Shown one piece after another: positions 9,420-47,262 of a stretch of 64,000 nt of DNA. Source of the DNA: Brachycybe producta (taxonomy: Eukaryota; Arthropoda; Diplopoda; Playtdesmida; Andrognathidae). The stretch covers positions 162,001 to 226,000 of the forward strand of contig JAUPFP010000050.1 of the NCBI GenBank assembly GCA_036925085.1. Reading direction: 5' to 3'. The position numbers and the translations under genes are program-made. Every line of letters starts with the position of its first letter. Position 1 is the first letter of the stretch. Under the pieces are notes generated by a model. That model was not told where the DNA came from, searched no databases, and saw only the letters and a list, made by a program, of their open reading frames with translations.

Positions 9420-10838
9420 TTACACTTCAACTTTCGTTTCCAGTACGGATTCCAAGTTCAATTTTTGCAATTTTGTCAATTTGTTCAATTTATACTTCTC
9501 AGTTCTCGTATGCCACACGAAAACCTTAAAGAAAATTAAGTAAAAAGGTCACGGTGACGGTTTGAAAAATCGACGACGATCGAATAAACAAAATCGCTCA
9601 CCTTTGTGCAGTTTTCAGCTTTCGGCTCCAACTGGTCGACCGACGTGATACTTTCCAAGAAAGAAGATTCAACGAACCCGCGAGGTCGATCCGCATGAAA
9701 TTTAGCAACGGGGTTCTTCAATACCGTTCGCAGATTCACGGCGAATCCGGCCATATCTAAAAAGAAAAACATTACCTTTTTGTAAATCCAAACAAAAGCA
9801 AAAAAGAAAAAGTCGACCTATTGGAAATGGTCGATTTGGTTTCCATGCCGTTACCCATCCGATAACCTTTCCATTGTTCACTTTCGGACCCTCCCACATC
9901 AATCCACCGACGAGTCCGACTGGAAACACCGACACCACTTTCGTACTTCTTATCTGAAAGGAAAAATTGACAAGTACGAATCGTCAGAAATGACCACAGA
10001 AACTAAGTCTAGAAATGACCTCCTTAAAAAGCCGTAGGTCGTAGGTATTGTCGTCGTCTGCGAAATAAACGACTCCGTCGCTGCTTCGAATGGTTCCATT
10101 CTCAAAAGACCTTCTGAGCCACGATAGCGCAGTGTTTCTCTGGTCGACACCTCTCGGTTTCGACCAATTCGGTTCGTCGTCGTCCAACTTGTACGCTGGT
10201 CTCGTCGGTGCGTTCAAGTGAGCGTAACGGAGACCAGAATCGATCAACAAACGACCGATCATTTCGCTCTTATGATCAGCATCTTCAACAAGAATCCAAA
10301 CGACGTTCGGAACAAGTTTCAAAGTATGTGAGAAACGAGTGAGTTCCGCCTTTTGAATTAGGCGAGAGTAGGTCGGAGTCACCACATAGATCAGGGGCAA
10401 CGCCTTTTTGAAATCCGTCTTCCTATGGCCAGAAACTCCGTACAAATGAAACACCTTATAAACACGCAAATAAAACACGATCACTAAAATAGGTTGACTA
10501 GGTGCAAAGTTTTCATAACATGTTTCGAACTGGCTTTTTCTTCTTCTATTTGAAATTCGTTAAGAGAGACAGAAACTCACATTCGATTCGAGCGCTTCAA
10601 GTTGTTCTCTGTAAGTGTCGCAATCGGATCCACTCGTTCTGAAGACACCTGAAACGGACACACAGTTAAGCGACAGGTCCAAAGAAGAGAAGTACGGGTC
10701 AGATGAGGGGCGAAGTCATTCGTAAGTTTAACCTGTGTCTATTCGAGTGTAGGAAGCGAAGAGAATTATGATCCAAACGACGAGAAAGAGAAAAACACAC
10801 AACTTGCTCGTTGTCAATTGAGCGAATCCCAATTTCAT
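9420..10838 (-). CDS. Galactosylgalactosylxylosylprotein 3-beta-glucuronosyltransferase (GlcAT-I), six coding exons
   Basis: Transfers GlcUA from UDP-GlcUA to Gal-Gal-Xyl on proteoglycan cores, completing the glycosaminoglycan linker in the Golgi. Coding exons, 5' to 3': 10838-10733, 10648-10581, 10454-10020, 9953-9818, 9756-9602 and 9524-9420. All junctions are GT-AG with matching phases, giving 334 aa, the family's usual length. Residues 1-36 form a type II anchor: a short basic tail, then a hydrophobic segment at about 14-30. The GT43 domain begins at [11 protein letters not shown]. The metal-binding DDD is at 191-193. FVESS at 276-280 carries the probable catalytic Glu278. NCT at 297-299 is a conserved glycosylation site, and the last exon has the family signature VWHTRTE and ends [12 protein letters not shown] and VGLVGG favour B3GAT3 over B3GAT1/2; this uses family knowledge, not a database search. 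Introns are only 61-126 bp. Confidence 0.95.
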
Positions 10839-20492: not shown

Positions 20493-22711
20493 TTGGTCTC
20501 AAAAACTCAACGAAGACTTAATTTATGTGGTTGACTTCATTATTATTAAACTTTCCACTTGAACGGTTTAAGATTCAAGATGGATTTTAGCTTTTATGTA
20601 ACAATTTTTAATTTCATGAAAGCTTTTTCTCTTCCATTCAAATATTGATTATTTTTGTTTGCAATAAGATTCCTTAAATAGATGGCTTCTCATATTACAA
20701 TTTTTCTTGTTTCTTAAATGTACTTCAGAATATCTTCTTCTTTTGTAGAGTGATTGATATCATGACTCTTGACCTAACAACAGCCAGCCACCCCTTATAA
20801 TACAGACTATAGATTGAGTGAGGCGGAGGAGGAACAGGAGGCCTAACATCTGAATTCACCCTGAATCTGTGACTAAAGTAGGACAAAAATACACGCAGCT
20901 CACTTTGAATGAGTTTTCAGTTAGTTGTTGTTGCGTGTGATGTTGATGAGGCATTTCAGGCGGCAACTTTCAAAAGTATTGTTTCATTTGAAAGCATTTA
21001 TAAACTGTCATTGCATTTGTATGTTAAACACATTTAAAGTAGAACACATAAAAATAACCAAAGTAATTGTATAAATATATAAAAAAGTGACTGTGACATA
21101 CTTCAACACTAACTCAATGTCAGTATATAGAAAACTGAGGATGGCCAAAAAAGTGGCTCACGGAGCCAATTATTATTAATTGTGACTCAAATAAAATAAA
21201 ATACAAAAGTATATGCAGGACCACCTATATATGCAAAAAGTTCGTTGCGTTCAATTTCAAACTTAAATAGGTCTCTTTTAATGAGTTATCATAATTGCAA
21301 CATTTAAAAAAGAAAGTGATTTTCGAAAAAAAAACTACGTTTAAAATAAAGTATTGTATTTTTTTTAAATTTAATTAATCCAGATAAGAATGGAAAAATG
21401 TATAAAGAAAATGGTTTTTGAGTTTAGCAACAATAGCGACCTTGCAGCAATGAAACTGCAATGGAAAAACGCATTCGGAATACAAATTCAAAAAAGGGCG
21501 AGGCTCAACTTTTTAAAAGAGCCAAAAATTAATAAAAGTGGGCGAAAACACAATTGAAAATCAAACAATTGAGAAGATTTGGAATATTTTCAAAATAAAA
21601 TATAACTTCCCTTTTGATATTATTATTATCAGTGATCATAATGATGATGATCACTCTCAACAATGTCAGTTAAAAAAAATGGCCGCGTCATTCAACAAAG
21701 TAAATTTCGCCATTTTAAAATATTAATTTCAAGGCGATTTCACTACCATAGAAGGGCAACAATTTAGACAAAAAAATGATCCATCATCATTGCTATTATT
21801 AATTTAAAAAATACAAAAACTGCCCCGAGGACTTAAAACAAAAACTACTTTAGGAATAACACACGTATTACACATCGTATTACGTAATCAGTTCATTAAT
21901 ATACTTTATGTAATAACTTACACTGCCAACATACATACAAATTCCCTATTCGAGGCTTCAAACCATTTAAAGTAGAAGCCTCAATGTCAAGTAGTTTTCT
22001 TTCTTGTCGAGCCTCGAGTAACCCTGAAATTGCCTGAATATCCTGACTACGACAATCCGCCAATTATAATCTAATATAATTAGAAAAGTCCTCAAGTGTC
22101 TAGAATTGAGATAAATAATAATTTACTACTTGATTCGTAAATAACTTGATAAACATCTTATAATTAATATTATCATTTTTATCAATTTTTTTTATACCAC
22201 ACACCAGAAAGGAAAAAGATTTTTCCAACCCTTTTAAGGCTATTTATTGAATAAGCTAATTGTTAGTTATTTGTTTTTTTTTACAGAAAAAATATGCTGG
22301 GTGTGACGGTCGATTCACGTGTTCTCATGAATACATGACTAGAGAGAGTGAGTGAGTGAGAGTTAGGCTAAACAACTCTTGGTTAAAGTTAAACTTAGGT
22401 TAGGTTAGTTTAATGATGTGGGTGGATATGTGTCGTAATAAAAACAAATATAATTGCCTCGGAGTCGGACACACAACCACATAATTAGTTTAAGGCCATC
22501 AGTTGACCGTGTAACACATTTATATATTTATGTGAGGAGTTAGGTTAGTTAATAAGAAGAAAAGCAAATCTTCAGCTGTTCTCTCCTCAACACAAGAAAA
22601 GTTTTCCATTTCAAATTGTTCCGTGAGCCATCGAAGAAACAACTTGTGTTCATCTTTTTCACTGAACTTGGATCTACCATATTTGAAATTTTGTTGCCTT
22701 TTTGTTACAAG
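14658..22711. other. Gene-poor intergenic region
   Basis: Eight kilobases with no supportable coding exon. It contains GGA repeats at 18547-18570, a CT tract at 20451-20492, CAA runs at about 14846 and 16661, GTCA repeats near 19790, and many poly-A/T runs. Frames at 16089-16382, 17602-17886 and 19331-19566 carry no motif I recognise. Some of this may be upstream sequence or leader introns of the HOPX-like gene: a pyrimidine tract plus TACAG lies just before 22285. A short TTAGG-like triplet at about 22390-22408 is too small to be telomeric. Confidence 0.5.
20451..20492. repeat. (CT)n microsatellite
   Basis: About 42 bp of CT repeat interrupted once by a G. Confidence 0.95.
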
Positions 22712-23593
22712 ATGTCATCTTATCTTTACCTGATGCCACCCGAGATTCAGGCTCAGTTGTCGCCTTACTACAAATTGCCTCCGATTCAACACGAACAGGC
22801 TCTCAGGCTTGAATCCACTTTTCAGAAGAACAAAAATCCAAACTGGAACGATCTGGCTATTTTGGCTGCTGAGAATGGACTCACTGAAGATCAAGTTAAG
22901 GTGAGACACAAATCTATATTAACCGTAAAAACAAAAATCATTTCAAAATTCTACAAAATTTATTCATAATTCGGACACTACAAAGTCAAGTGTGTGCATG
23001 TCTAATTTCCATAAATTAGGTCCCATTGTGGGTTTTTTTTTGCACAATGTTTAATTTCAATTCAAATTACAAAATTAAACTGGAATTAAAATTCATTTGT
23101 AATCAATTTTTAATTTCAGTTTAATGTTTTTACTTTGAATCTGAAATTTAAAAAAAAAGTTGTTGTGACTTAATTTACCACCTAATATACTGTGTATGAT
23201 ATACATTATTTAAATTTGAAACAAAAAAGTAGCGATATTTTTACCCTGGCTCCATATTAGTCAGTGGTCGAGATTCCTTTTCGTAAAGTGAATGTAGCCA
23301 CCGGCCACAAATGAGATTCTTCTCTTTACAAAACACGGCATTTTATAATTGCAAAATAATTCTGTTAACGACAAATTAAATATAAAAAAACTAACAAACA
23401 AATGAAAAATATTGATTTCAAAAGTAAAAAAAAAATATATTAATAAAATAATAATAATAAAAAGCTGTGAGCGAAGAAAGTGAAATGAAAATATTCTGTT
23501 TGCAATTATTTTCAGATTTGGTTTGAACATCGATTGGCTTGTTGGCGCCAAACCCAAGGATTACCCGCCAACGAAACATCCTTGATTGGATAA
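22712..23593 (+). CDS. Homeodomain-only protein (HOPX-like), two coding exons
   Basis: Coding exons 22712-22900 and 23516-23593, joined in phase 0 across a 615-bp GT-AG intron, give 88 aa. The start ATG has A at -3. An upstream in-frame extension lacks an ATG and sits in a pyrimidine-rich stretch. Residues about 27-79 form a homeodomain: LESTF in helix 1, LAILAAENGLTEDQVK in helix 2 and the turn, IWFEHRLACWR in helix 3. The tail ...GLPANETSLIG parallels the vertebrate HOPX ending GLPSE. From memory of human HOPX (73 aa), identity is about 40% by eye. The intron falls at homeodomain position 46/47, usual for PRD-class genes. Position 51, normally Asn, is His here (Gln in HOPX), and the basic N-terminal arm is absent. 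So, like HOPX, it probably does not bind DNA and acts through partners. 5' UTR and poly(A) site are not resolved. Confidence 0.85.
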
Positions 23594-25294
23594 ACACAAC
23601 AATTATGGAAAACTACAAAGAAATATTTCAAAATTCACCAAGAAAACATTTAAAACAAATTTCCGATTCTGACATTTGTTTTAAAAAAATTATTTAGATA
23701 AAGAACAAGTATTAATATTATTTTAATATTGATTGTAGTATAAGAATCATTTTTCATTTTGTAAAGTGGAAATCGAGATTCAACCTAAAATACAGTTTGG
23801 GGGAGGGGAGAGGGTTAATGTCAAATACACCCACCACCTTCAAACAATAATAATTGTTAATGTTTATTCTCCATTATGTCAATAATAATCCCATCAGTCT
23901 CATTTTCTACAAATAATAATTATAATCATCTCAATGAGAACAGTTTTGTGAATTCGCAAACATATTATTGCGAAATAGAAGAGGATTCAAAAAAGATTCA
24001 CCACCTGATCACCTCGCAATCAACAAACAGAACATTATTATAATTATTATTATTGTGACTTATGTCAAATATAATGAGGCATAATCGCAATAACAACTTT
24101 TACAAGATTAAGTCTACCAAATAATAATTGTAAATAGAAAACTTAATGAGATATTATTCAAAATATTATTTGGTTAATTTCTTCTTCTTCTTTTCCAGAG
24201 AGAGAAAAATTAATCTATTTTTTAGAAATATAAATAAATTTTCATGTAAATGTTCTGAATCAGAATTGAATGACAAACTTTGAACCATCTCTTATTTTGT
24301 ATAATTACATTAATTAATCATAATAATAAACTTAATTAAAATAATTAAAAGGCAAATCAAATTAGCATCGTTTTCAATGCAATTTGATTTTATTTGTTTG
24401 TTTTTTTCATTTCAGGTACATTTTAGTTCAACTTAAGTTTAGTTGAAACTCGAAACAGTGATTGATTGATTGAACAGTATTGATTATTGACCGTCCACCG
24501 ATTTCTAACCCATTATTCATTGGGAAGTTAAATGACCACTTTAAAAACACGAACATTTTTTCGCATTTCGGTTCGTTCAACCAAAAAAGAAACTTCTTTT
24601 TGAACGAAGTAAAAAGAAAATTCAAGAAAAAACCCATTAATATTTCTAACAAAAAAAACAAAACTAAACTTAACATTAATATGGAAGAGATTTCAAAATG
24701 AAAGTTGAATGAGCCATTTGATGCCATTGCACAATAGCAAATGATGTGAAATTTAAATTGTTTAATTTACCAATTATGACAATTATATTAATTTATTATT
24801 GTGCATTTAATAATAATATACACTACACTGGTGGCGTTGTTCAATAAATGCCATTCATCTGATTGCCTCAGAAATTGCATTTCGGACTACTATACACGAG
24901 AACAATACATTCCTGCTTGAAATTAATTGTTGTTGGTTGCAATTAAATGTCCCTTTCTCGTTTCACTCGTTCCAATATAGACAACACTTTCCCCACCCAC
25001 CTAGTTAAGTTATAAGTGTAATCTCATGGTTGTTGTTGTTGTGTTCGGATGATGTAATAATAATGGTCGTCGTACATACTGTACAAGTACAGATTTAATG
25101 TGCTGGCTGTACATAAATGATAAATCTCTCCCAGATATGAAACCCGGTCATTTATTATATTACATCCTGTATCTACTTATCATAATATGTAGAATAGATG
25201 CATTTTGAAGCCGAGTGTCACTTTCATGAATATTATTACAATTCTCTTTCAGATTTTGTTTTCCAGATGAGTGTTTGAAATTTGTATCGACCAA

Positions 25295-29642: not shown

Positions 29643-32290
<2,648 letters not shown>

Positions 32291-37999: not shown

Positions 38000-39259
38000 T
38001 CATATGGAACTATCCTTTTCTCCACAAGAACTACTGTGCCTGTCTTTGTAATCTAAGTATTTGCCGTTCGTTTGAGCGTGGCGCTTTCGACGTTCGTCGC
38101 CGACGACACCCCCATGAAAACCGCCGCCGCCACCTCCACCTCCACCTTGGTGCCGCGACATTCCATTTGCAGCAGAAGCATAAAACTCGTCCTGATGGCG
38201 ACAGAAGCAGAAGCACTTGTGACCGTAGAGGCTGAGCGTCCGACCGAAGGCCCTTCGAAAGTCCTGATTGAAAATGCTATAGATGATCGGATTGAGAGCC
38301 GAATTGGCATAACCCAACCACGTGAGGATTTTAAAACACAACTCACTGATGCACGTTTTACAAAATGCAGCCGTTATGTTTATGATAAAAAAGGGAACCC
38401 AACATATGAGGAACGTGCCCATGATTATGCCCAGAGTGACGGCAGCTTTATGTTCCGAGACGTGGGGCGGTTGCGACGGACCCTGTTGCGAGGCGTGCGA
38501 ATTGAGACGACCGCTGGGTCCGGGCGAAGAATTACGTTCGTCGTCTTCGTAGGTCAACTGCAAAGGCCTCGTCATGGCCTTAATGTTTTTAACGTGCATC
38601 CGAGCATACATGTAGAGTCTCGTATAAAAAGCTACCATGATGAAACAGGGAAGGAAGAAACTGATAGACGACGACACAACGGCATAAGTTGGACTCAGAT
38701 CCATGGCACAAGTGACTGGACCGGAATCCGTCTTGTTGGAAGTGTCGGGCGGCAAATGCATACCCTGGCTGATGGGCAAGAAAGAGACCAGACACGACGT
38801 CAGCCAAATGGTTCCAATGACAACCAACACCACGGACTTGGTCATCCAACGCGTGTAACGCATCGGATCACGTATGTGCAAGTACCGATCCATGCTAATG
38901 GCACACAGGTTCAATATGGATGACGTCGAACCCATTACGTCAAATGCGATCCAAACGCTACAGAAACCCTCCCCAAAGATCCAATGACCGATGAGGTCAT
39001 TGGCCAAAGCAAAGGTCATGACTAAGGTGGCCACGAACAGATCGGCGACCGCCAACGACACGAGGAACAAGTTGTTGAGCTTACGAAGACTGCGATCGGT
39101 CGCAATTGCGATACAAACCAAGAGGTTACCGGCGATCGACATGAATATGATGAGAACCATAACGAGTCCGACCGCCACGGCTGGTATCAGAGGGCCCAGT
39201 GGGTCGTGTTCGCTCTCCAGACTGATGTTTTGATCGTTGACTGGTGCGATTGAAGACAT
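38000..39259 (-). CDS. D1-like dopamine receptor, Dop1R1 type
   Basis: A class A amine GPCR of 419 aa, expected to couple to Gs and raise cAMP in neurons. Seven membrane segments lie at about 26-52, 62-84, 97-119, 142-163, 191-214, 271-296 and 305-330. Key residues: Asp73 (2.50), Asp107 (3.32, amine contact), DRY 124-126, the Cys100-Cys184 pair, a serine cluster at 196-200 in TM5 for the catechol, CWVPF 286-290 and NPIIY 323-327. Possible N-glycosylation at Asn11 and Asn175; CFCFC at 349-353 is a likely palmitoylation site. ITAAFCKTC and FKILTWLGY match arthropod Dop1R1 closely. The tail carries nine glycines (372-380) and ends DSSI, a class I PDZ ligand. The coding exon is intronless, but an acceptor at 39302/39301 lies 41 bp upstream and the frame stays open to it, so extra N-terminal residues from another exon are possible. 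Confidence 0.93.
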   Translation of the reverse strand: MSSIAPVNDQNISLESEHDPLGPLIPAVAVGLVMVLIIFMSIAGNLLVCIAIATDRSLRKLNNLFLVSLAVADLFVATLVMTFALANDLIGHWIFGEGFCSVWIAFDVMGSTSSILNLCAISMDRYLHIRDPMRYTRWMTKSVVLVVIGTIWLTSCLVSFLPISQGMHLPPDTSNKTDSGPVTCAMDLSPTYAVVSSSISFFLPCFIMVAFYTRLYMYARMHVKNIKAMTRPLQLTYEDDERNSSPGPSGRLNSHASQQGPSQPPHVSEHKAAVTLGIIMGTFLICWVPFFIINITAAFCKTCISELCFKILTWLGYANSALNPIIYSIFNQDFRRAFGRTLSLYGHKCFCFCRHQDEFYASAANGMSRHQGGGGGGGGGFHGGVVGDERRKRHAQTNGKYLDYKDRHSSSCGEKDSSI

Positions 39260-39300
39260 CGTTTTGTTAACTGCATCTGATGGAACATGTCCACGTTTCT
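39260..39300 (-). other. 5' part of the Dop1R1 exon (leader or extra coding)
   Basis: Between the acceptor TTTTAAACAG and the ATG are 41 bases. In the receptor frame they are open (RGHVPSDAVNKT). In another frame an ATG opens an ORF that overlaps the receptor start. Either the receptor begins at 39259 with overlapping upstream ATGs, or it has a longer N-terminus encoded further upstream. Confidence 0.45.
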
Positions 39301-41575
39301 CTGTTTAAAACAAACAAACAAAAACATTCTTCTTAGTTCACTTTCAATGTTTCAACAGACAATAAATACATGTACAATAAAAAGTAGGGTTCGGGTTTTT
39401 ATGCAATACCAAAGCAAATATTTCTCAATTTGTGACCCAAACTGTGGATAAAACTGTGAAGTCATCATCATCACTAAGAAAAACTGCAATTATGTTTTTT
39501 TCTAATCAAAAAAGGCTGGTTAGAGGCTAGATGTCTGATTAAGTACAATCAGTTGTCAAATAGAAATCCACGGAATTGTTTCTTCCCAATTCACTCTTGG
39601 ACCACAAAATTACACATTTGCTGAATGTATTTGCACAAAGTTCTTTCAAACTCGTTATAAAATATATTGGATTGAATCCATGAGAGCTTTTGAGACTCTT
39701 GAAAAAAATAGAAAATTCAAAACATGCCACAATTAAATCACATCCATCATCGTGATAATCAAGTTCTCTGAGTTTCAAAGCAAATGCTTTATTTATTAAT
39801 TCTGTTATTAATCATATTGTAATTTATTTATTAAATATCTAGGAAAGGAAAAAATATTTCAAAATTCACTTTATAAACTAACTTCGAACTCAATTTTGTT
39901 AACAGGTACCAATTAAAATTAAAATTAATCAATGTTCGTTAAAATAGTTCAAAAATGAGATTTGTATCATTAATTATTTTCCGGCTAGGACACTAATTTC
40001 AATTAATCAACATTTTTTAGATTAATTCAAAAAGAGAGAGACATATTTTCAAGTAAATTGCGTTAAATGATAATGATGATGATCATCATCATCCACTATT
40101 TGTTGCACGAAAATCATCATCAACCCCTTAAGTGTGACACACACATTAAGTGACACACACGACGACCACTTTTGATACAACCAAGAAAAATTATTAATGT
40201 AAATGTTGATGTATCTCATGAAAAATGTAGAAAAACTTATTAATTATATATTTGGTGGAGCTGAATATGGTAGTGAAGTATGACACAAGAGAAAATGGGT
40301 GGAACAAAAATTCCGATTTATTTCCTAATTAGAACCAAAAAAAAATTACCTCGAACGAAATACAGAAAAAAAATGTCTTAGGCCCCAATTTCAAACTAAA
40401 ACATATGTTGAAAACAAAGAAATCGGTGCCTAAGAAAGAAGTTATGATAAATATTTTCATCCAAAAGACGACGAAGAAAATGTATAATGTCATCATATCG
40501 ATCGGCAAAAATCATTTCTCCTTATGATATTAAAATATAAAGAAAAGACCCTCCCCCCCCTAGGCATATACACACATGACCATGCTAAACATACAAATTG
40601 TATGGGTGTTTGTGTGGAGGCGCTACTCCAAGAACCACCCCCCCCCCAAAAAAAAAGTGCAAACATTGAAATAAAATTCCAAAAAATAAACTGTATGATA
40701 CAAAAACTACCTTCGTTCGGTCCAATGAACTACAAAAGCCACAACAGTATTTTGATAATAAAAATAATTCCATGTCAAATATATAAAAAAGCTCCATTTT
40801 CTTCAGCATTTTTATTAAAATCAAAGACATAAACTCATAACTTTTTTTATTTCCGGAGTTAAAGAATAGAGAGCGAAAAATTCAAAACAAAGTAGAAAAT
40901 TGACCGGAAATAAGTTCTGAGCAAACAGGAGAGGTGGAACTTAGACGTTGTATGAGTAGTAGTAATATAGTAGGCCTAGCACACATTCCTAGACCATAGT
41001 TCATTCTGCGTCATTTATTTCACTTTAAATTGCCCCATCTTTTTTTAAAAAAAAAGTTCAACTAAGGACTGAAAGAATGAAAGGAAAATCTTGAGAAAGA
41101 GAGAGAAAAAAACTCCATTCAAGATGATGCGATAAAATGAAATCGCCATCATCGGCCAACCAAAAAGACCTTTAGGAAGAAAAGAGGGAAAAAACGCGTT
41201 CTTTTTCAAGTAGATTTTTCCACATAGAGACAGACACACACAACCCACCAATTTCTAAGAGCCTACGGGATACACTTTAACAAAATAACTATAAATTATA
41301 CACACTGTTTGGACTTACTAAACCTTCCCCGTTCAAGTGACCAAAAAGTGTGCCTTAAAGTGCCTCACGAGTAGTAATAATAGCAAGAACTTTAATAGAA
41401 CTCCATATTGCAAGATCAATGCAAAAGATTCCATGAATAATGCAAGAACAAAACAAATAGAGCAAAAGAATCGAGAATATAACAAACATTGCACAAATCT
41501 AAAGGTGGAAATAATCCTCACGGAGAAACAGAAGATCAGTCAGTCAGTGTACATTTTTCAACTGGTTTTAAGGAC
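39301..41575. other. Intergenic or 5' intron of Dop1R1
   Basis: No coding exon recognised. It contains a perfect 20-bp palindrome of ATG/CAT repeats at 40073-40092, CA-rich patches, poly-C near 40552 and 40640, and AT-rich sequence. An upstream leader exon of the receptor could lie here but cannot be identified. Confidence 0.45.
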
Positions 41576-46498: not shown

Positions 46499-47262
46499 TT
46501 TACCCTAAAGATACATTTTCCCTAAAGGGAGATATTGCCCTAAAGGGACGTTTGCCCTAAAGGGAGATATTGCCCTAAAGGGACGTTTGCCCTAAAGGGA
46601 GATATTGCCCTAAAGGGAGATATTGCCCTAAAGGGAGATATTGCCCTAAAGGGAGATATTGCCCTAAAGGGAGATATTGCCCTAAAGGGAGATATTGCCC
46701 TAAAGGGAGATATTGCCCTAAAGGGAGATATTGCCCTAAAGGGAGATATTGCCCTAAAGGGAGATATTGCCCTAAAGGGAGATATTGCCCTAAAGGGAGA
46801 TATTGCCCTAAAGGGAGATATTGCCCTAAAGGGAGATATTGCCCTAAAGGGAGATATTGCCCTAAAAAGACATTTGCCATAAAAAGACATTTGCCCTAAA
46901 AAGACATTTGCCCTAAAAAGACATTTGCCCTAAAAAGACATTTGCCCTAAAAAGACATTTGCCCTAAAAAGACATTTGCCCTAAAGGGACATTTGCCCTA
47001 AAAAGACATTTGCCCTAAAAGGACATTTGCCCTAAAAGGACATTTGCCCTAAAGGGACATTTGCCCTAAAGGGACATTTGCCCTAAAGGGACATTTGCCC
47101 TAAAGGGACATTTGCCCTAAAGGGACATTTGCCCTAAAGGGACATTTGCCCTAAAGAGACATTTGCCCTAAAGGGACATTTGCCCTAAAGAGACATTTGC
47201 CCTAAAGAGACATTTGCCCTAAAGGGACATTTGCCCTAAAAAAACATTTGCCCTAAGGAGAT
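46499..47262. repeat. CCCTAAA-containing minisatellite, 18-bp and 17-bp blocks
   Basis: About 15 consecutive units of TTGCCCTAAAGGGAGATA (18 bp) run to about 46865. About 23 units of 17 bp follow, alternating TTGCCCTAAAAAGACAT and TTGCCCTAAAGGGACAT. Each unit holds CCCTAAA, the complement of TTTAGGG. The 116-aa repetitive minus frame through the 18-bp block is an artefact of the unit being a multiple of three. Confidence 0.95.

Follow-up and report, generated by a model that had tools for sequence, protein, structure and literature searches.

The gene at positions 22712 to 23593 of the analysed DNA is probably an arthropod orthologue of HOPX: its sequence points to a single-copy, homeodomain-only gene whose product has lost the DNA-contact surface and probably acts as an adaptor. 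HOPX is a well-known homeodomain protein without DNA binding, which has been studied mostly in vertebrates. Orthology is favoured because the two proteins are mutual best matches, group together in trees that are not decisive by themselves, share Leu53, the loss of Asn51, the tail length and a charge near zero, and because both genes have an intron between homeodomain positions 46 and 47. The genome searched is a 295.3-Mb assembly of 442 contigs, and the window, as the whole analysed stretch of 64 kb is called here, corresponds to C50:162001-226000.

Gene structure and coding potential

The gene consists of two coding exons, and their splicing is predicted from the GT-AG signals together with the reading frame.

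22712..22900, plus strand: coding exon 1, 63 codons, residues 1-63 (17 N-terminal residues and homeodomain positions 1-46)
22901..23515, plus strand: intron, 615 bases, phase 0, splitting the homeodomain at 46/47 (AAG/GTGAGA ... TTTTCAG/ATT)
23516..23593, plus strand: coding exon 2, 25 codons and TAA, residues 64-88 (homeodomain positions 47-60, GLP and an eight-residue tail)
24233..24238, plus strand: candidate polyadenylation signal, the first AATAAA past the stop codon, a consensus match only

Position 22712 is the earliest ATG past the upstream in-frame stop in the stop-to-stop frame of exon 1; TTTTTGTTACAAG, located immediately 5' of this ATG, might be taken for a weak acceptor. The product has 88 amino acids, with the homeodomain at residues 18-77 and 11 residues beyond it. 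The Pfam Homeodomain profile matches residues 25-75 with 46 bits (E 4.7e-12; the cut-off of 22.9 is about half of this score), and in a genome-wide profile search exon 1 alone matches positions 7-46 of the profile. Using a codon model trained on two neighbouring coding stretches only, the spliced frame obtained a log-odds score of +11.2 bits, compared to a mean of -52.7 and a maximum of -5.0 for 5000 random stretches of flanking DNA; exon 2 by itself scores about -4. The G+C content is 0.44 in the coding sequence versus 0.25 in the intron. A preliminary description of this DNA had proposed a two-exon gene for an 88-amino acid protein comprising hardly anything but a homeodomain, which is borne out by the open reading frame, the splice signals, the Pfam match and the codon use. 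The motifs LAAENGL, WFEHRLACWR and GLP reported there are present in the exon translations.

A search of the whole genome showed that the gene is present as a single copy, since only its own two exons scored above 30 bits and the next match reached 29.6. Scans of the 64-kb window with Rfam (gathering threshold) and ARAGORN yielded nothing. Repeats of at least 25 bases between positions 21500 and 25000 were confined to A/T-rich pairs that are 71-82% alike or complementary, and thus no transposon origin is seen. No relative of the 88-amino acid product was found in the collections of viral and genome contigs; among eukaryote sequences, the comparison covered its own genome.

Residues at the DNA-contact surface

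The homeodomain was aligned with those of the other homeobox genes in the same genome. Altogether, 98 genome matches were obtained, including that of the window gene itself; 7 were not retrieved and 9 rows were left out, two as copies or near-copies (L021, L023) and seven as short or carrying insertions (L054, L095-L100). Positions 51 and 53 are reached by 52 of 80 rows, the others being first exons only. Three features of the window gene stand out in this comparison.

23528..23530, plus strand: His codon at homeodomain position 51, where Asn is nearly universal
23534..23536, plus strand: Leu codon at homeodomain position 53, replacing Arg; mouse HOPX also has Leu
23558..23566, plus strand: GLP directly behind the homeodomain, followed by eight residues to the stop, likewise in mouse HOPX

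All 52 other rows that reach position 51 carry Asn there, and at position 53 Arg is found in 51 of the 52 and Leu in one. The alignment shows Glu50, His51 and Leu53 and no Arg5 in the window homeodomain, confirming the replacement of Asn51 by His and the missing N-terminal basic arm that had been described before. Glu50 and Leu53 are additional features of this protein, and the loss of Arg53 had not been mentioned. Nearly all homeodomain rows of the genome, unlike the window protein, keep Arg5 and a strong positive charge: over homeodomain positions 2-58 the net charge is 0 for the window protein and -2 for mouse HOPX, versus a mean of 8.7 and a minimum of 3 for 40 gapless others. None of the 32 other homeodomains with a readable flank is followed by GLP within eight residues.

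Given that other residues occupy the contact positions 5, 51 and 53 and that the basic charge is lost, we read the DNA-contact surface as lost, and the protein would no longer bind DNA. The core residues Leu16, Phe20, Leu40, Trp48 and Phe49 are kept, and the three-helix fold is probably retained.

The sole other row with Leu53 (L091; G000:C5:8764833-8765003, minus strand) keeps Asn51 and lies within a 2432-amino acid open frame containing four homeodomain matches. We assume that it is of the zfh type.

Similarity to HOPX

The best match of the window protein among PDB sequences is mouse HOPX, with 47.9 and 47.7 bits for two chains (2hi3 and 1uhs, which we take to be the mouse protein); the best single-domain rival is Pitx2 with 35 bits, and a two-homeodomain engrailed fusion reaches 40.3 bits from two stretches. 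Identity to mouse HOPX is 46% over 61 amino acids in BLASTP and 42% over 57 columns. Aligned over homeodomain positions 8-58, the pair scores 118, whereas against 40 other complete homeodomains the window protein reaches at most 98 and HOPX at most 93. The local score of the pair is 132, compared to at most 98 (window protein) and 86 (HOPX) against 48 complete homeodomains of the genome and a maximum of 53 in 2000 shuffles. When set against the other homeodomains of this genome, the window protein is the best match of mouse HOPX and vice versa. When the genome was searched exon by exon with mouse HOPX the locus ranked only 7th of eight weak matches, because the gene is interrupted by an intron; its identity of 45% is the highest of the eight, over only 41 residues.

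The two proteins have more in common than these scores. Like mouse HOPX, the window protein is homeodomain-only, has lost Asn51, carries Leu53, lacks the basic arm, is nearly neutral, contains RLAxWR in helix 3 and ends eight residues after GLP. Many PRD-class homeodomains share Ala54 and Trp56 with the window protein, but the complete PRD-type rows of this genome, unlike it, keep Asn51 and Arg53. An intron between positions 46 and 47 is described for human HOPX and for many PRD genes (Holland et al., 2007, PMC2211742); Pitx, Gsc and Pax6 are examples of the PRD class.

The proteins also differ. Mouse HOPX has 73 amino acids versus 88 in the window product, the N-terminus of which is longer, with 17 residues preceding the homeodomain, and residue 51 is Gln in mouse HOPX and His here. 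Vertebrate HOPX is described as having an insertion of one residue between its first two helices (PMC2211742, PMC9179269), and the window protein is without it. This insertion is possibly a vertebrate or chordate trait that does not define the bilaterian Hopx family. Its absence from the window protein is a point that the preliminary description had not raised.

Phylogenetic analysis and alternative origins

The first tree comprised 83 rows, 81 of them being other homeodomains of the genome. One of these (L094; G000:C28:950079-950183, minus strand) carries one additional residue in the loop that connects helices I and II (FKQVDKYLS), close to the site of the vertebrate HOPX insertion; it was out of register in the 83-row tree, where it formed a very long branch. 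Removing it left 80 genome rows, and it is absent from the 60-row trees, for which 22 further genome rows, mostly ANTP type by our reading, were dropped. The window gene and mouse HOPX were joined with a bootstrap of 99 and an SH-aLRT of 95 in the 83-row tree and with 98 and 95 in the 60-row tree, values that are rough given 57 columns, two long branches and a bootstrap that had not settled. The long branches are those of the window gene and of mouse HOPX, which alone represents the family in these trees.

A different gene of the PRD or ANTP/NK type could have shrunk and lost its DNA contacts independently, so that the likeness to HOPX would be due to convergence and long-branch attraction. 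We consider this origin unlikely, although several results agree with it. In the AU test, a placement of the window gene among 21 PRD-type rows, apart from HOPX, was not rejected (p 0.312, lnL 10.4 lower). When columns 51 and 53 were masked the pair was still joined in quick trees, with SH-aLRT falling from 96 to 90 and the grouping no longer starred. In further quick trees the window row, after removal of HOPX, joined 20 ANTP-type rows with an SH-aLRT of 99 and an end branch of 3.38, while HOPX, after removal of the window row, stood at an unresolved fork with PRD rows nearest by path. Thus, each placed without the other, the two genes go to different places. The missing helix I-II insertion also fits convergence.

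The AU result, the masking and the separate placements together mean that the tree alone settles neither orthology nor class. Of the grouping expected with HOPX and PRD rows, the trees return the joining of the pair, and the AU test also allows a PRD placement apart from HOPX. The intron that had been taken as a tie to the PRD class is at the expected position, but the class placements in the trees (ANTP type versus PRD) contradict each other. Convergence, however, would also have to produce Leu53, AAE at positions 35-37, a GLP tail at equal distance from the stop, the small size and the 46/47 intron, and none of the 48 scored complete homeodomains of the genome comes near the mutual score of the pair. 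The balance is tipped toward HOPX partly by traits outside the tree, namely Leu53 and the missing Asn51, the GLP tail, the charge and the position of the intron at 46/47. The HOPX identity proposed earlier is well supported by the mutual best scores, the tree, Leu53 with the lost Asn51, the intron and the tail length in combination, the tree being insufficient by itself.

It is very improbable that the window gene is an ecdysozoan member of a family near Hopx, such as Lopx (lophotrochozoan only homeobox). Lopx is described as divergent, separate from all PRD families except the likewise divergent Hopx and not split from Hopx in trees (PMC6118893), which would suit such an origin. According to the same description, Lopx is named as lophotrochozoan and has a unique C-terminal motif, whereas the window protein continues for only 11 residues after the homeodomain, a HOPX-like length; the window gene is set apart from Lopx by description only. 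A pseudogene or decaying homeobox, which the loss of residues invariant or nearly so in the other homeodomains of the genome might indicate, is more improbable still, since the frame is open across both exons, the splice signals are intact, codon use is coding-like, and rare residues in common with HOPX are not expected to outlast decay.

Other features of the window and the genome

Two further genes were detected in the window.

38000-39304, minus strand: open frame of a rhodopsin-family receptor (7tm_1, 223 bits)
9536-10559, minus strand: glycosyltransferase family 43 (GT43) gene in two open stretches (profile match)

The receptor is presumably dopamine D1-like. An array of short tandem units at positions 46540-46930 leaves several frames open on the two strands (repeated ALKGDI or FRAISP), and a long TA-type microsatellite at 31350-31690 reads as IYIYIY on both strands.

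Ten Hox homeodomains lie in one orientation within about 720 kb of contig C27, and we read them as Abd-B, abd-A, Ubx, Antp, ftz, Scr, Dfd, Hox3, pb and lab. The host had been described as an apparent invertebrate; this is supported, and the Ubx- and abd-A-type homeodomains with the peptides that follow them point specifically to an arthropod. About 73 kb past the Abd-B end of the cluster is a further homeodomain (L080; G000:C27:1478824-1478961, minus strand), which we take to be even-skipped-type. Tight linkage of eve and Hox genes is called exceptional among protostomes in the centipede genome paper (PMC4244043). The cluster on C27 keeps Hox3, in contrast to that of the centipede.

A single hemocyanin-type gene was found on contig C245 with three exon matches. 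The joined pieces match hemocyanin subunit II with 173.8 bits, hemocyanin AA6 with 165 and phenoloxidase subunit 1 with 161; the subunit II sequence is presumably that of Limulus and the phenoloxidase that of an insect. By these scores the gene looks weakly chelicerate-like, and we assign the animal to the arthropods at large and to no particular class. Two pairs of similar homeodomains were observed. L020 and L021 (G000:C1:2875439 and 6249492) are identical and lie on opposite strands of the same contig, 3.4 Mb apart, representing either a recent duplicate or an assembly artefact. L003 and L023 (G000:C46:1431695 and 1379517) have the same residues over their common stretch and are 52 kb apart; L023 has a stop at the end of the matched stretch.

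Age of the family and probable loss of DNA contacts

Reports of Hopx were confined to chordates until Paps et al. (2015, PMC5322547) added molluscan genes, from one snail and two oysters, with a bootstrap of 67% for all together; they place its origin at the base of the Bilateria, followed by multiple losses. These molluscan genes are protostome Hopx according to that tree and belong to another phylum than the window gene, with which we compare them by description. A 2025 review (PMC12608687) names, in parts of its text, only vertebrate HOPX homologues. No report of an arthropod Hopx was found in the literature searched, which comprised titles, abstract starts and parts of texts. The main texts of the centipede genome paper and of a survey of arachnid homeobox genes (PMC6107062) contain no mention of hopx.

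What is new here is a probable ecdysozoan member of Hopx, and with it a loss of DNA contacts that, judged from the residues, appears on both sides of the Bilateria, which suggests that this loss is ancient. The preliminary description had argued that such a gene would date the loss of DNA binding to an early bilaterian ancestor. The presence of the family at that point was already published (Paps et al., 2015), and the dating of the Asn51 loss is suggestive only: with His51 here and Gln51 in mouse, one ancestral loss followed by drift and two separate losses both fit. The shared Leu53 favours a single loss of Asn51 over two. Taken together, the data suggest that a non-DNA-binding HOPX regulator may be as old as bilaterian animals. 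It appears reasonably likely that HOPX was kept as a single copy in at least one arthropod and that the helix I-II insertion of vertebrates came later.

Proposed function

The protein would consist of one homeodomain with a three-helix fold that makes no DNA contacts, having His51, Leu53 and Glu50, no Arg5 arm and a charge of about zero. By analogy with vertebrate HOPX it is most likely a nuclear adaptor that acts through protein contacts with transcription factors and co-repressors, and it would dampen the activity of its partner factors without itself contacting DNA. Vertebrate HOPX is described as binding SRF, helping SRF off the DNA and recruiting HDAC2 (review PMC9179269). Extending the SRF and HDAC partners, which are known for vertebrate HOPX only, to the arthropod protein would be a guess.

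If the window gene is indeed an arthropod HOPX orthologue with the same lost contacts, it would provide a protostome in which the original function of the adaptor could be addressed, and the timing of the loss of DNA binding would become directly testable.
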